A DNA stretch of 59,403 nt from the IMG/VR virus record IMGVR_UViG_3300028883_000053, positions 1 through 59,403 of that record; one strand, 5' to 3'. The notes beneath the pieces were generated by a model. The model was not told the origin of the DNA and made no database searches. It saw nothing but the letters and a program-made list of their open reading frames with translations. Positions 12,804-27,673 of this stretch are shown here, piece by piece. Every line of letters begins with the position of its first letter. Positions within the stretch are counted from its first letter, which is position 1. This DNA is from a virus. Made by a program: the position numbers and the translations under genes.

Positions 12804-14012
12804 ATGAGTAAAGTCTATCGACTGATCGCTATCTTGTCTGTGGTACTGTTTGTGTTTGTTGTGGCCATTCCAGCATATGCGCAGGACAGCGATGATTACA
12901 GCCTGTACATGCCATCGATCAGGGCTGCGACGGGCGATCCTGTACTCGATGAACTCGATATCACACTTGAGGTAGCGGCTACATCTGAGCAGCTATCAAC
13001 ACCGTTTGGCGTAGGCATGCCTTGGCAGGCAAAGGAATACAGCAGCAGCCCATCGGACTACTATCGGCGCACGTTCAATGTACTGAAGACGACAGCGACG
13101 AGCGGGACCTATAACGGGACGGTATACAAGCCGTGGTGGTATGACTGGCAACCGGACGGCGCATCTTGGACGGGTGCGTTGTGGTGGAAACTGCAATACG
13201 TACCAATGCTGTGGGGCTGCTCGACGGATTGGGGACCATCTGGCTGTACCAACGGCGACTGCGACAGCGACGGCTACGGCGACTATTACAAGGAATTCAA
13301 GGACCTGCTTTACGAGCAATATCTCGTTGATCAGGAAGAAAAGGTGGTCCTGCTCTGCAATGAGCCGACCCAACAGGCGGGCATCGATTACGAAGACTTC
13401 TCTGGCATGCTGGCCGATCTGTACGAAGACGTATACGCGCCCGCATATCAGAATTACGGTCTGGAACCCAAGTGGATCGGTCCTAATATCAGCGTAGCAG
13501 CGGCGATTAATGATAGCACATTCATTGCGGGCGTTATCGATGAGATTGACTGGTTAGGCGGAGGGTGCTTGTGGTACGGCACGCTCCCGTGGTGCCTCGA
13601 CACTTATTACGCTCCGCTAAGTCTGTATTCGCCTCTTCACTGGGGTATCCACATCTATGATACGACGACGACTGGCATGGAGAATCAGTTGGATTGGTGG
13701 GAGGGATTCCTGGCCGATCAAATTGACGAGTCAACTTTCCTGGACGCACCAGAAACAGCGTGGATCACGGAGTTTGCGTCGCTATCCTACGACTGGAACG
13801 TTCAGAAGGCGACTGTCTCTTGGGGATACGATGCGATATCAGACACGAGCCACGATGTCGATAAGGCGTTCTGGTTCGGGGCGGACACGCACGAGGTCCC
13901 TGGCTGGTCGATTGACCCATACAACGATTTGGTGCAACAGAACGAGACGACACTGACGGGGCGAGGTACTCGGTTCGTATCTGAATTCTTGGATTGGGCC
14001 AATACACATTGA
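12804..14012 (+). CDS. secreted glycoside-hydrolase-like protein
   Basis: 402 residues with a signal peptide (hydrophobic core at residues 7-22, AYA cleavage after 26) and a very strong RBS (AAAGGAGG). After a YSLYMPSI segment the protein has a TIM-barrel glycosidase pattern: VVLLCNEP with Glu187 as likely acid/base and AWITEF with Glu323 as likely nucleophile, as in clan-A glycosidases and the glycosyl-hydrolase-catalytic-core group. Secretion rather than virion packaging suggests surface modification by the lysogen. Substrate unknown. A related catalytic pattern recurs in the fusion gene at 26046-27470. Confidence 0.78.
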   Translation: MSKVYRLIAILSVVLFVFVVAIPAYAQDSDDYSLYMPSIRAATGDPVLDELDITLEVAATSEQLSTPFGVGMPWQAKEYSSSPSDYYRRTFNVLKTTATSGTYNGTVYKPWWYDWQPDGASWTGALWWKLQYVPMLWGCSTDWGPSGCTNGDCDSDGYGDYYKEFKDLLYEQYLVDQEEKVVLLCNEPTQQAGIDYEDFSGMLADLYEDVYAPAYQNYGLEPKWIGPNISVAAAINDSTFIAGVIDEIDWLGGGCLWYGTLPWCLDTYYAPLSLYSPLHWGIHIYDTTTTGMENQLDWWEGFLADQIDESTFLDAPETAWITEFASLSYDWNVQKATVSWGYDAISDTSHDVDKAFWFGADTHEVPGWSIDPYNDLVQQNETTLTGRGTRFVSEFLDWANTH

Positions 14013-14631: not shown

Positions 14632-15435
14632 ATGGAACCTATCAAATGGACGACCGAGAAGCGCAGGGCGGGCGGCCTAGTTCCCTGGGATCGCAACCCC
14701 CGCACGATGACGCAGAAGCAGGCGGAGCAGCTAGAGGAATCGCTTCAGCGCTTCGGTCTAGCAGACCCGATCATCATCAACACGGACAACACGATCATCG
14801 GCGGTCATATGCGGGATCGCATCCTGCTTCTGATGGAAGAATACGGTCCAAATGCCGAGGTCGACGTGCGCGTGCCTGACCGTGAATTGACCGAGGACGA
14901 GGTCGCAGAACTGAATGTCAGGCTCAACAAATCCGGTGGTACGTGGGACATGGACGCGCTAGCGAATGAATTCGATCTGAATGACCTGATGGATTGGGGC
15001 TTTGAGGATTGGGAACTAGGCATGGGCGAGGACATCGGTGACGCAGAAGACGAGGACGTCACCACGGACGATCCTGGGCCGTCTAGCGACGAAGCACGGC
15101 AGACACTGGCAGAACGCTTCATTGTCCCGCCGTTTAGCGTCCTGGACGCACGTCAGGGCTACTGGCAGACACGCAAGCGGGCGTGGGTGGCTCTAGGTAT
15201 TCGGTCCGAGCTAGGTCGTGGGATGGACTTGGTCAGACAGTCTGCGACCGTGAACGACGAGGACTTCTACCGTCAGAAGACAGCCAAGGAAAAGGAGCTT
15301 GGTCGCGAGTTGACAACAGAAGAATTCCTGCGTGACTATCACGTGATGCCTAAGCGACTGAAGATCAGAGGGAAAGACCCTGCGCGCACGTTCGGTCAGG
15401 ACCTAATGCGAGGGGAGAATCCGAAGTATGCGTAA
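14632..15435 (+). CDS. ParB/sulfiredoxin-like nuclease-domain protein
   Basis: 267 residues. The ParB-like domain spans residues 1-95 (LVPWDRNPRTMTQKQAEQL, IIINTDNTIIGGHMR, TEDEVAELNVRLNK). Residues 155-200 (RFIVPPFSVLDARQGYW, RAWVALGIRSELGRG) form the linker typical of phage ParB-methyltransferase fusions. The C-terminal segment KEKELGRELTTEEFLRDYH is repeated, diverged, in the next protein. This suggests an ancestral ParB-methyltransferase fusion was split here. Likely acts on phage DNA together with its neighbour; catalytic activity is not shown. Confidence 0.8.
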   Translation: MEPIKWTTEKRRAGGLVPWDRNPRTMTQKQAEQLEESLQRFGLADPIIINTDNTIIGGHMRDRILLLMEEYGPNAEVDVRVPDRELTEDEVAELNVRLNKSGGTWDMDALANEFDLNDLMDWGFEDWELGMGEDIGDAEDEDVTTDDPGPSSDEARQTLAERFIVPPFSVLDARQGYWQTRKRAWVALGIRSELGRGMDLVRQSATVNDEDFYRQKTAKEKELGRELTTEEFLRDYHVMPKRLKIRGKDPARTFGQDLMRGENPKYA

Positions 15436-16855
15436 GGTCAAGATATCGGCTATGTCTGCGCGCCAGAAATTCAACGGCTGCGACCCTGATTATATAGCGA
15501 ATGTCTGTCACGCCACCTGTTGCGACGCACCGTCAAGGCCAACGGGCTGTCTGGTGACCATACACCCGACTGAGCAGGCGGCTATAGAGGGAATAGGCGG
15601 CGTTGTATCAAACGGGCTATTGCAACCGAAACAGGGCGCTAAGGGCTGTCCGTTCAAGCAGGGCGACGGTCTGTGCAGCATACACTATTCTGGCGTCAAG
15701 CCGTTCGGCTGCATCGCAAGCCCTTTCACGCTGAACAAGAACGGCACACTGATCATACGCAACCGCTATAGGATGCTTAAGTGTTTCGATGACGGTAAGA
15801 GACTGCCCGCATACGTCGCATTCAGGGAGTCGCTTAACTTGATATTTGGTGACGACGAAGCGCAGCGCATCTGCGATCACCTAGACGATGGCGGCGGTGA
15901 CATGCAGGCTACGATATCCGAGAGGAACTACAAAATACTGATGGACAACGACGAAATCAAGAAACAAGACAAGGCGAACCCGAATCACGTTGCAGACGGT
16001 CTGCTCATGCAGTCTGACAGCGGCAACGACCCACAGTTCTACTACAAAAAGCAGCAAAAGGAGAAGGAACTAGGTCGGGAATTGACGACCGAGGAATTCC
16101 AGCGGGATTACTACGAGGGACCTGACAGTTATCAGACAGGCACGTCTATCTTTGACCCTGTCCTGACCGAACTAGTGTACACGTGGTTTAGTCCTGCGGG
16201 CGCTCACATACTAGACCCTTTTGCGGGCGGAAGCGTGCGGGGCATCGTCGCAGGATACATTGGGCGAGACTACACAGGCGTGGACCTGCGAGCAGAGCAA
16301 GTCGAGGCGAATCGGGTGCAGGCTGACGAAATGATTGATGGCGACACGAAACCGCAGTGGATAGTAGGCAATAGCCTGACCGACATACCAAACGAGCGCT
16401 ACGATCTAGTTTTCTCCTGTCCACCGTACTTTGACCTAGAGATATACAGCGAAGACCCTGCAGACCTGTCAAACTACGACGGCTACGATGCGTTTCTTGA
16501 GGACTATCGGCGCATCATAGCGCAGGCTGTCGACCATCTGCGCAACGATCGTTTTGCCTGTTTCGTCGTTGGCGATATCAGGGACAAGAACGGCATATAT
16601 CGCAACTTTGTGGCTGACACGATAGACGCATTCCAGACCGCAGGAGCGCAGCTATACAACGAGGCGATCTTGGTGACCGCAGTCGGGAGTCTGGCGCTGC
16701 GGGTCGGGCGTCAGTTCACTGCAGGACGCAAGCTGGGCAAGACGCACCAGAACGTTTTGGTATTCGTGAAAGGCGACCCTAAGGCGGCTGCAGACTACTG
16801 TGGGCCAGTCGAGGTCGCAGAGCTAAATGATACGGACTACCAAGTAGGTGACTAA
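15428..16855 (+). CDS. cysteine-cluster (YkgJ-like) domain fused to a DNA N4/N6 methyltransferase
   Basis: 475 residues, overlapping the ParB-like gene by 8 bases. Residues 1-150 carry many cysteines in a YkgJ-like metal-binding pattern (CHATCCD, GCPF, GLCSIH, KPFGCIASPF). Residues 205-225 repeat the linker KEKELGRELTTEEFQRDYY. The rest is an S-adenosylmethionine-dependent DNA methyltransferase: DPFAGGSVRG for cofactor binding and FSCPPYFDLE as the (D/S)PPY catalytic motif. It presumably methylates phage DNA against restriction. The metal-cluster domain on a phage methyltransferase is unusual. Confidence 0.82.
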   Translation: MRKVKISAMSARQKFNGCDPDYIANVCHATCCDAPSRPTGCLVTIHPTEQAAIEGIGGVVSNGLLQPKQGAKGCPFKQGDGLCSIHYSGVKPFGCIASPFTLNKNGTLIIRNRYRMLKCFDDGKRLPAYVAFRESLNLIFGDDEAQRICDHLDDGGGDMQATISERNYKILMDNDEIKKQDKANPNHVADGLLMQSDSGNDPQFYYKKQQKEKELGRELTTEEFQRDYYEGPDSYQTGTSIFDPVLTELVYTWFSPAGAHILDPFAGGSVRGIVAGYIGRDYTGVDLRAEQVEANRVQADEMIDGDTKPQWIVGNSLTDIPNERYDLVFSCPPYFDLEIYSEDPADLSNYDGYDAFLEDYRRIIAQAVDHLRNDRFACFVVGDIRDKNGIYRNFVADTIDAFQTAGAQLYNEAILVTAVGSLALRVGRQFTAGRKLGKTHQNVLVFVKGDPKAAADYCGPVEVAELNDTDYQVGD

Positions 16856-24929: not shown

Positions 24930-25351
24930 TACGAAATCCTCCTTGCAACTCTGACTTGTTCGCCCAACCCAATGTCGTACTTCTCTCCGTCGAATTGCCT
25001 GGAATATGGCGGAAGTTTGTCGTAACCAGCCATATCGAAGCTATAGTCTCGCTCAAGCGTCACGTCGACATATTCACCGATCTCAGCCTGCGCAGCGTCC
25101 TGCAGGCTGATTACGACGCTGCGGCGATAGCGTCTGAACGGTATCAGATCGTCCCGATATCCCTCCCGCCAAGGCCCGACTATAACACTGTATCGTCTGC
25201 CATCCTCGATCGCCTGCATGATCTGCTCGCCGATTGTGATATTGGCCATGCGCTTGCGTTGGGCAACGATCTCGTCTGCACACACCAGAACAAGCGCCTC
25301 GTCATTTGCGACGAATTCCAGCGTAAAGATGCCCGTCTTTTTGTCGGTCAT
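24929..25351 (-). CDS. protein of unknown function
   Basis: 140 residues from ATG 25351 in an ATGA overlap with the upstream gene. Alternating strands and a helix (NITIGEQIMQAIEDG), then RRSVVISLQDAAQAEIGEYVDVTL. No domain recognised. Confidence 0.62.
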   Translation of the reverse strand: MTDKKTGIFTLEFVANDEALVLVCADEIVAQRKRMANITIGEQIMQAIEDGRRYSVIVGPWREGYRDDLIPFRRYRRSVVISLQDAAQAEIGEYVDVTLERDYSFDMAGYDKLPPYSRQFDGEKYDIGLGEQVRVARRIS

Positions 25352-25701
25352 TCGCTCGCCCATGCGCAGTCTCCTTTGCATATCTCGGACAGCCTGACAG
25401 ACCGTGCCGCTCCATCCTTGTAGTGTATGTTGACGAATCGTCGTTCAGGGAACGGAAGCGACAGGTGCGACCAGCGTATTGCGCCGTCCTGCGCAGCGTC
25501 TATCGTGGGCCAATCGCACGGGGTCGATATCCAGCCACCGTAGCAGACGTGGATGCTCTCGACGTCGTCACCGGTTACGATCTCAACGCTGTATCGTTCC
25601 CCGCCGTAGTACTCCACACGAGCTTCGATGGGCTGCTCACCCTGTATGAATGGAAGCCATATGGATATCGTCAGCAGCAAGCCCATAATCGTGCTAGTCA
25701 T
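25348..25701 (-). CDS. small secreted or membrane-anchored protein, paralogue of 25706-26053
   Basis: 117 residues from ATG 25701 (AAAGGA upstream). N-terminal hydrophobic stretch (STIMGLLLTISIWLPFIQ) as a signal or anchor, then a soluble beta-rich domain ending KGDCAW. The neighbour has the same plan (LLLTIALWLPFMQ ... GECGW), so they arose by duplication. Two cysteine pairs (HVC...PC, IC..DC) suggest disulfides outside the cytoplasm. Could take part in lysis or exclusion; unknown. Confidence 0.68.
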   Translation of the reverse strand: MTSTIMGLLLTISIWLPFIQGEQPIEARVEYYGGERYSVEIVTGDDVESIHVCYGGWISTPCDWPTIDAAQDGAIRWSHLSLPFPERRFVNIHYKDGAARSVRLSEICKGDCAWASE

Positions 25702-25705
25702 TCTG

Positions 25706-26053
25706 TTAATCCTTTCTCCATCCGCACTCACCTACACAGACATCGGCCAGCGGGAATATCGTCCTAGTGTCGTTCTGCGTCACGATCTCGATCACGTGCA
25801 TTCTAGGAACTTGAACCGAACCACCGATCCAAATGTGTTGCTCTGCGTACATATCCTGCAGGCGCAGCGGTTGATACGCCAGATTTGTGTTGTAGACGAA
25901 GCACAGGTTTACTTCCTGCACGTCGTTTCGTGCCTTGACCTGAAAGTCATACAATTCGATGTCGGCTATGCGGGTCATTTCGACCTGCACGGGCGAGGGC
26001 GACTGCATGAACGGAAGCCACAGTGCAATGGTCAGTAGTAGTGCGTTAATCAT
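25706..26053 (-). CDS. small secreted or membrane-anchored protein, paralogue of 25348-25701
   Basis: 115 residues from ATG 26053, which overlaps the end of the glycosidase-Dam gene by 8 bases and has GGAGG upstream. N-terminal hydrophobic helix (INALLLTIALWLPFMQ), then strands and a C-terminal VCVGECGW. Same architecture as the next gene. Confidence 0.68.
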   Translation of the reverse strand: MINALLLTIALWLPFMQSPSPVQVEMTRIADIELYDFQVKARNDVQEVNLCFVYNTNLAYQPLRLQDMYAEQHIWIGGSVQVPRMHVIEIVTQNDTRTIFPLADVCVGECGWRKD

Positions 26054-27470
26054 CCTCCAAATCCTTTCTCCAATCCCATCCTTGGATCGCTCCCTCGGGC
26101 CACCCAGGGCCAAATACTACAATCGCAGTCGCATGGCCGGGCCTTTTCTTGTTCTCTACGCCCTCGGGCGGGTCGAACGCAACCCGTCCACGCAACAGAT
26201 AGATCGAACCCTTCATCGCTAGTTCGTGCCACCATGCGGTATCGGTGGACGCTCGCAGCACGCAGACGGTCGTCACACCGTTCGCTCTTTCGTCCAGCGC
26301 CTTCGTCAGCCACACTTCAGTCTGACCGTATGGTGGATTACAGAACGCTAATCGACTTTTGACACCGTATTCCCACCAGTCAACCTTCAAGCCGTTGTTT
26401 GCGGGCGTGATATAGTTTTCGGCTTTCGCATTGTCGTCAGTTGCACAGACGTCCAGGTCAAATGCGCCGAACTTCGACTCTAACGCTTCCATCAAATCGT
26501 CTGGCGTCGACCAGTCCTGATACCCGTTCGTCTTGACGTGCGACATAACGTTGGTTTCGACCTGTTCGGGTACAGTGTATCCGTTGCGTATCGCAGCGAT
26601 CAGATCGTCCTGTACTCCGATCTTGTTCTTGATCGACCATCGATCATAATCCTCCCAACGATACAGGCATGAGCAGTGTATCTTCTGATTGCCTGCGACC
26701 TGATTCCAGCGGTCGACCTCAGCGTACATCTCCTGCACCCAACCGTCGTTGACGTCTGCCCATGCCTCGTCGCCCTGATCAGTCTCGGTGATGTAGACGG
26801 GAAGCGACGTCATGCCTGCGGGTATAGCGTGCATGAAGTCCTGATAGCAGCGGAAATGCCAGCGCCAGCCCTCAGGATGAACAGCGTCAGACGCCACAAA
26901 CGACGGGTCAGCACCGTGAGTGTAGGCATGAAGGGCGATACCGTCCAGATTGCCAGGGCCTACTACTTTGAGGATTGTACCGAAGTATGAGATCGGGTCG
27001 ATGCCTGTCTGCATGTTCCACGGAGCTACAGCAGCAACGATCACCTCGTCATTTTCGTGGCCGTCTAGCGACCTGATTGCAGTGCGGCACAGCTTGAACG
27101 CCCGTGCGTAGTCTCCGGCAGCAATCCAGCCATCTTCGGGCCACTCGTTTTCGTGGTTTGGTTCGTTCCCTATAATCCAGCGTGTGACGCTTTGCGTGCG
27201 TGCGACGTATTGCGCACAGCTAGATGCGAAACGCTCGTATTCATGTATCATCGGGAGCGTACCCGTCGACCCGTACCCGTTATTGATGCGCACGATCACG
27301 TCAATTTGGGCGTCCGCCAGTTCGGAGTAGTCGGTTCGAGCGTCCCGTCCACCGTCCAGCCCGACTGCGACCGTATCGACGACCCAGCCGGACGTGCGAT
27401 CACCGGTCACATTTTCGTGCAACAAATGCGCCCCGCCAGCATCGTGTATGCCGTAGATTGATTTTCTCAT
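26046..27470 (-). CDS. fusion of a glycoside-hydrolase-like domain and a phage Dam methyltransferase
   Basis: 474 residues from ATG 27470, in an ATGA overlap with the previous stop; the frame extends further upstream only through that gene. Residues 1-285: clan-A glycosidase pattern with IIGNEPNHE (Glu103) and VYITETDQG (Glu229). Residues 315-474: phage N6-adenine methyltransferase of the Dam type with DWSTPDDLMEALESKFGAF, DLDVCATDDNAKA and LAFCNPPYGQT (NPPY 378-381). There is no signal peptide. One enzyme for glycans and one for DNA in a single chain is unexpected; a gene fusion by deletion of a stop is the simplest origin. Confidence 0.82.
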   Translation of the reverse strand: MRKSIYGIHDAGGAHLLHENVTGDRTSGWVVDTVAVGLDGGRDARTDYSELADAQIDVIVRINNGYGSTGTLPMIHEYERFASSCAQYVARTQSVTRWIIGNEPNHENEWPEDGWIAAGDYARAFKLCRTAIRSLDGHENDEVIVAAVAPWNMQTGIDPISYFGTILKVVGPGNLDGIALHAYTHGADPSFVASDAVHPEGWRWHFRCYQDFMHAIPAGMTSLPVYITETDQGDEAWADVNDGWVQEMYAEVDRWNQVAGNQKIHCSCLYRWEDYDRWSIKNKIGVQDDLIAAIRNGYTVPEQVETNVMSHVKTNGYQDWSTPDDLMEALESKFGAFDLDVCATDDNAKAENYITPANNGLKVDWWEYGVKSRLAFCNPPYGQTEVWLTKALDERANGVTTVCVLRASTDTAWWHELAMKGSIYLLRGRVAFDPPEGVENKKRPGHATAIVVFGPGWPEGAIQGWDWRKDLEDD

Positions 27471-27673
27471 TCGCCAGTCTCCTTGAACGCCCGTTCGCAG
27501 TCCTTCAGCGTAATGCCTAGTTCGCCGAAGAAATCGCGCAACGACATGCGTTCGCCTTCGATACCGACGCACCCGTCATACCAACCGCCTATTGCTATGT
27601 CGCGGCTTGTTTTGTAGAAGGTCACGTCGATTCCTGAGTAATCAAAGTCGCCAATGTAATATGTCTTAGGCAT
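27467..27673 (-). CDS. small protein of unknown function
   Basis: 68 residues, overlapping both neighbours (8 bases upstream, 4 downstream). Strand-rich start (TYYIGDFDYSGIDVTFYKT), helical end. No domain recognised. Confidence 0.62.
   Translation of the reverse strand: MPKTYYIGDFDYSGIDVTFYKTSRDIAIGGWYDGCVGIEGERMSLRDFFGELGITLKDCERAFKETGE

Follow-up and report, generated by a model that had tools for sequence, protein, structure and literature searches.

The stretch of viral DNA analysed here, a record of 59,403 bases (the window), encodes a single chain in which a glycosidase-like domain is followed by a DNA methyltransferase. We consider it likely that the N-terminal half is a lysin glycosidase module of Chloroflexota phages, and that a gene fusion of recent date attached it to a complete Dam adenine methyltransferase of the stand-alone type. 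The result on the glycosidase family outweighs the fusion in importance. It concerns a clan-A domain without family assignment in Chloroflexota, a phylum with a poorly studied cell wall and poorly studied phages, and in the phages themselves. As it is repeatedly coupled to modules of the M23, GH108, SLT, muramidase and amidase types, it is a candidate cell-envelope glycosidase of a kind not described before. The fusion, in turn, demonstrates that attachment of a lysin module to an unrelated cytoplasmic enzyme is possible, while a bifunctional role, for which a single contig is at hand, would be unusual.

The coding frame of the fusion gene (Table 1) is unbroken, with zero internal stops and with numerous stops in both alternative frames. 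In the 5′ direction it extends to a GTG at 27572, which would give a form of 508 residues. The ATG at 27470 is nevertheless the better start, because AAGGAGA is found 7 nt 5′ of it and because it overlaps the stop of the preceding open reading frame as ATGA.

Table 1. Coordinates of the fusion gene, its parts and its upstream neighbours in the window
Feature	Position	Strand	Evidence
Fusion gene, glycosidase-like domain and Dam methyltransferase, 474 aa	26046..27470	-	Open frame, AAGGAGA, ATGA overlap, PF05869, weak DUF5722
Glycosidase-like (clan A type) domain, residues 1-298	26577..27470	-	Alignment of 57 sequences, AlphaFold2, Foldseek
Candidate acid/base Glu103 codon	27162-27164	-	Alignment and AlphaFold2 model
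Candidate nucleophile Glu229 codon	26784-26786	-	Alignment and AlphaFold2 model
Linker TVPEQVETNV, residues 299-308	26547..26576	-	End of glycosidase homology at about Y298, start of Dam homology at M309
Dam (PF05869) domain, residues 309-474, own Met at start	26046..26546	-	Pfam, PHROG 111, motif alignment, codon use
NPPY motif codons of Dam domain	26328-26339	-	Motif alignment
Small ORF of 68 aa with ATGA overlap at the fusion start	27467..27673	-	No family (Pfam, PHROG)
Possible holin, 144 aa, with a single strongly hydrophobic segment	27666..28100	-	Hydropathy maximum 2.0 at residue 40
N-acetylmuramidase (endolysin) gene, 207 aa	28097..28720	-	PF11860 E=1.2e-34; PHROG endolysin E=1.2e-31

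Within the N-terminal domain, the residues N102, E103, P104, N105, H181 and E229 are invariant in an alignment of 57 homologous sequences. An AlphaFold2 model of this domain, for which the homologue alignment was used as input (pLDDT 95.4, pTM 0.93), is a (β/α)8 barrel with all eight strands in order, in which N102-E103 follow just past strand 4 (residues 97-100) and E229 lies within strand 7 (residues 225-231). A glutamate after strand 4 combined with a glutamate on strand 7 is the arrangement of clan-A retaining glycosidases. As modelled, the N-terminal half thus has a clan-A glycoside hydrolase fold and is a predicted glycosidase. Foldseek returned GH5, GH128, GH53, GH30 and GH26 structures as neighbours (probability 1.00 for GH5, GH128, GH53 and others), albeit at just 10-15% identity and with a TM of about 0.5-0.6 to any solved member, and a profile search against solved structures gave a single weak GH5 match. 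Because of these low values we describe the domain as a clan-A barrel that does not clearly belong to any family: it has the barrel, the NE at strand 4 and the E at strand 7 in common with GH5, GH128, GH53, GH30 and GH79, but lacks a family assignment. Its likeness to DUF5722 (PF18989) is confined to a weak match of 68 residues around the NEP strand (E=1.2e-5), which at 24.9 bits falls below the gathering threshold of 30.5.

Relatives of the glycosidase-like domain were reached via phages with related terminases. Two such contigs carry the domain at 42% identity, and an alignment with one of them (A1) was then used for a wider search, resulting in 31 viral loci and 61 genome loci, the latter mostly from Chloroflexota, among them Anaerolineae and Caldilineae, plus a few from Armatimonadota and others. 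Single-sequence pattern scans of viral contigs, both with the whole protein and with the glycosidase-like domain alone, produced zero matches, as did tblastn of the domain against annotated phages; tblastn against plasmids produced one weak match, related to an archaeal disaggregatase. In the family tree, the window copy branches alone, without supported neighbours. Judged from these homologues, the host of the phage is probably a member of Chloroflexota. The family (loci L014-L044 and L045-L095) is centred on Chloroflexota and their phages and represents a candidate new glycosidase family, for which we found neither a characterised member nor enzymatic data. One Caldilineaceae MAG (G013; loci L076, L086 and L095) contains at least five open frames with the domain, some of them with different lytic partners.

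The C-terminal domain was recognised by PF05869 on residues 344-488 of the 508-residue form (E=1.5e-27; 96.8 bits, gathering threshold 28.1), with a second figure of E=6.8e-30, and by PHROG 111 (DNA methyltransferase; E=1.3e-48). It is full length and has the NPPYG and TDTxWWH motifs, conserved in an alignment of 18 sequences, in common with the phage Dam N6-adenine methyltransferases of PF05869. It differs from these stand-alone proteins in being preceded by 308 residues, and its 82.9 bits remain below the cut-off of 97.05 for the TIGR01712 phage_N6A_met equivalog. A scan of viral Dam proteins yielded 26 relatives, all 26 of them free-standing in frames of 143-221 aa, and the Dam matches in 400 Chloroflexota genomes occupy frames of 123-222 residues, all without a glycosidase-like domain. 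A Dam-like match elsewhere in the record was present in four of 12 phage records bearing the glycosidase-like domain, two of these matches residing in frames of 399 and 466 residues distinct from the glycosidase gene. Since one viral locus (L044) has a free-standing Dam about 1 kb from the glycosidase gene, on the opposite strand, and another (L018) has a free-standing adenine methylase gene of the D12 class at a distance of about 1 kb on the upstream side, it is not unusual to find an adenine methylase gene in the vicinity of this lysin gene. With respect to codon use, the Dam half has the lowest score of 29 segments and ranks below every one of 330 windows of equal length taken from other phage genes, a figure to be read as a ranking and not as a probability, as these windows overlap. 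The glycosidase half is ordinary in the same comparison, and this difference between the halves supports a recent joining.

A reading of the sequence alone had proposed one chain of 474 residues starting at 27470, a clan-A pattern with Glu103 in NEP and Glu229 in TET, and a Dam-type NPPY methyltransferase. All of this is borne out by the agreement of open frame, AAGGAGA and ATGA overlap, by the invariance of both glutamates (Glu229 in TETD) and their location where strands 4 and 7 end, and by the PF05869 score together with the intact motifs.

Homology to the glycosidase family stops at about residue 298 and Dam homology begins at Met309, with about 10 residues between them. The join is real in the sequence and is found in one metagenomic contig only. 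Among the relatives, a fusion to Dam was present in 0 of the 31 viral loci, in 0 of the 61 genome loci, and in 0 of the 13 matching genomes among 400 Chloroflexota. Searches based on the muramidase and on an exonuclease led to distant relatives only, with Dam or the glycosidase-like domain in none of the loci fetched, and a second copy of the junction peptide was not found, although records very near the window perhaps lay outside this search. Thus, the search for relatives with the same fusion came back empty, and the homologues found are always split, an outcome that the sequence-only reading had named as one that would speak against the fusion.

This outcome could point to an assembly or sequencing error, such that a lysin glycosidase gene and an adjacent Dam gene following it were merged when a stop or frame change was lost in the join of about 10 codons. 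A singleton metagenome contig without a second copy of its junction would be in line with such an error, as would the Met start that the Dam part has of its own and the full length of both parts. However, both homologies share one frame to within about 10 codons of the join, homopolymers in this region do not exceed 3, and the next stops in the alternative frames occur 50-90 nt inside the Dam part. Moreover, Met309 is kept, but a good Shine-Dalgarno sequence at normal spacing is absent before this internal ATG, so that a separate Dam gene would start poorly. We therefore regard an error at the join as unlikely. A recent fusion of neighbouring genes, which the sequence-only reading had offered as one of two explanations, is favoured by partners that are separate in every relative found, by a short linker between full-length domains and by the foreign-looking codons of the Dam half. 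In this sequence of events, the Dam gene would have been newly acquired and then joined to the gene of the lysin glycosidase.

The assignment to lysins is based on the company that the glycosidase-like domain keeps. In the phages with related terminases, a Pro-rich linker comes after it and then Peptidase_M23 (E=2.3e-25), and a signal peptide is absent. Across the 31 viral loci, the partner in the same chain is M23 in 15 cases and GH108 in four, with no lytic partner recognised in the remaining 12; in some phage versions SH3 or SLT accompanies M23, and in others SH3 accompanies GH108. Three of these 12 consist of nearly nothing but the glycosidase-like domain and several have C-terminal modules of other kinds; use as a lysin is therefore not established for every viral version. 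In one GH108 version (L014), a Phage_holin_4_1 gene (E=2.1e-30) is located two genes upstream, with one ORF of 209 aa between them. The bacterial versions, mostly from Chloroflexota MAGs, are fused to Amidase_2, to the muramidase PF11860 and SH3, to LysM, or to SLT and M23. With M23, GH108, SLT, N-acetylmuramidase, Amidase_2, LysM and SH3 as partners across phages and bacteria, the catalytic domain is one that is shared with lytic cell-wall enzymes, as in phage endolysins. In the window itself, the PF11860 muramidase gene stands three genes upstream of the fusion on the same strand, with a protein of one transmembrane segment between them. This 144-aa protein had zero Pfam or PHROG matches but is possibly a holin, to go by its hydrophobic segment; a holin recognised by Pfam is found only in the relative L014. 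Given the lytic partners, the holin gene near the L014 copy and the muramidase gene in the window, the domain is best read as a cell-envelope glycosidase of lysins and cell-wall enzymes.

One might instead suppose that the glycosidase is a depolymerase or virion-associated enzyme acting on another host glycan, such as a sheath, S-layer or capsule. Its clan-A fold neighbours include glucanases, galactanases, mannanases and xylanases, and some phage members combine unrecognised C-terminal modules with a position after other late genes. However, the recognisable partners are mostly peptidoglycan enzymes, one phage copy is near a holin gene, and the window gene sits in the muramidase block and not in the structural block, which makes this role rather improbable.

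For the lysin module fused to Dam, we envisage the following course of events. The chain, which has no signal peptide, would be synthesised in the cytoplasm, where the Dam half, if active, would methylate adenines of the phage DNA and thereby probably protect it from restriction. The glycosidase half would encounter its substrate only once lysis permeabilises the membrane and, if it too has retained its activity, might then help the neighbouring muramidase to cut the envelope glycan. Holin-dependent endolysins normally lack signal peptides, so a cytoplasmic glycosidase needs no special explanation. As for the presumed target, peptidoglycan can be part of a multilayered envelope in Chloroflexota studied so far (Litorilinea aerophila, PMC13319060).

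The fused product resembles modular phage endolysins in which a glycosidase is combined with an M23 peptidase, or with GH108 and SH3: in relatives built in this way the same domain is N-terminal, a signal peptide is absent, the partners are lytic and, for L014, a holin gene is nearby. The fused product departs from them in that a DNA methyltransferase takes the place of a lytic domain as the second catalytic module, and in that its glycosidase is a clan-A barrel not placed in a known family. We think it very unlikely that the fusion is functional and selected as such, either by combining early DNA methylation and a late lysin in one cytoplasmic protein or by re-purposing the glycosidase half to sugars on DNA. 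The second explanation of the sequence-only reading, in which the glycosidase would cooperate with Dam and trim glycosylated DNA or some intracellular glycan, can draw on two catalytic domains with intact motifs in one chain, but is hardly credible, as the domain is elsewhere coupled to cell-wall hydrolases and found near a holin, no DNA enzyme was recognised in the same chain in any other family member found, and a narrow literature search gave no paper on lysin-methyltransferase fusions or on glycosidases acting on glycosylated DNA.

Several other genes of the window deserve mention. The fusion gene is followed on the minus strand by two tandem paralogues without a family (25348-25707 and 25706-26074; 25% identity, E=4e-14), which have N-terminal hydrophobic segments and a common C-x-G-x-C-x-W end and might play an accessory part in lysis or in the envelope. 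A second protein with glycosidase-like motifs (CNEP, ITEF) is encoded on the plus strand at 12804-14012; it has a signal peptide as well as a YMPSI segment. It belongs to no Pfam or PHROG family and has no relative in 201 Chloroflexota genomes; we considered it as a paralogue of the glycosidase half of the fusion and rejected this, since sequence similarity between them is absent. Also on the plus strand, at 15428-16855, there is a DNA methyltransferase-like gene (PHROG 12517 at 9e-104; PHROG 498, DNA methyltransferase, at 1.3e-76). It is preceded by a ParB-like gene, and the two share the segment KEKELGRELTTEEF.
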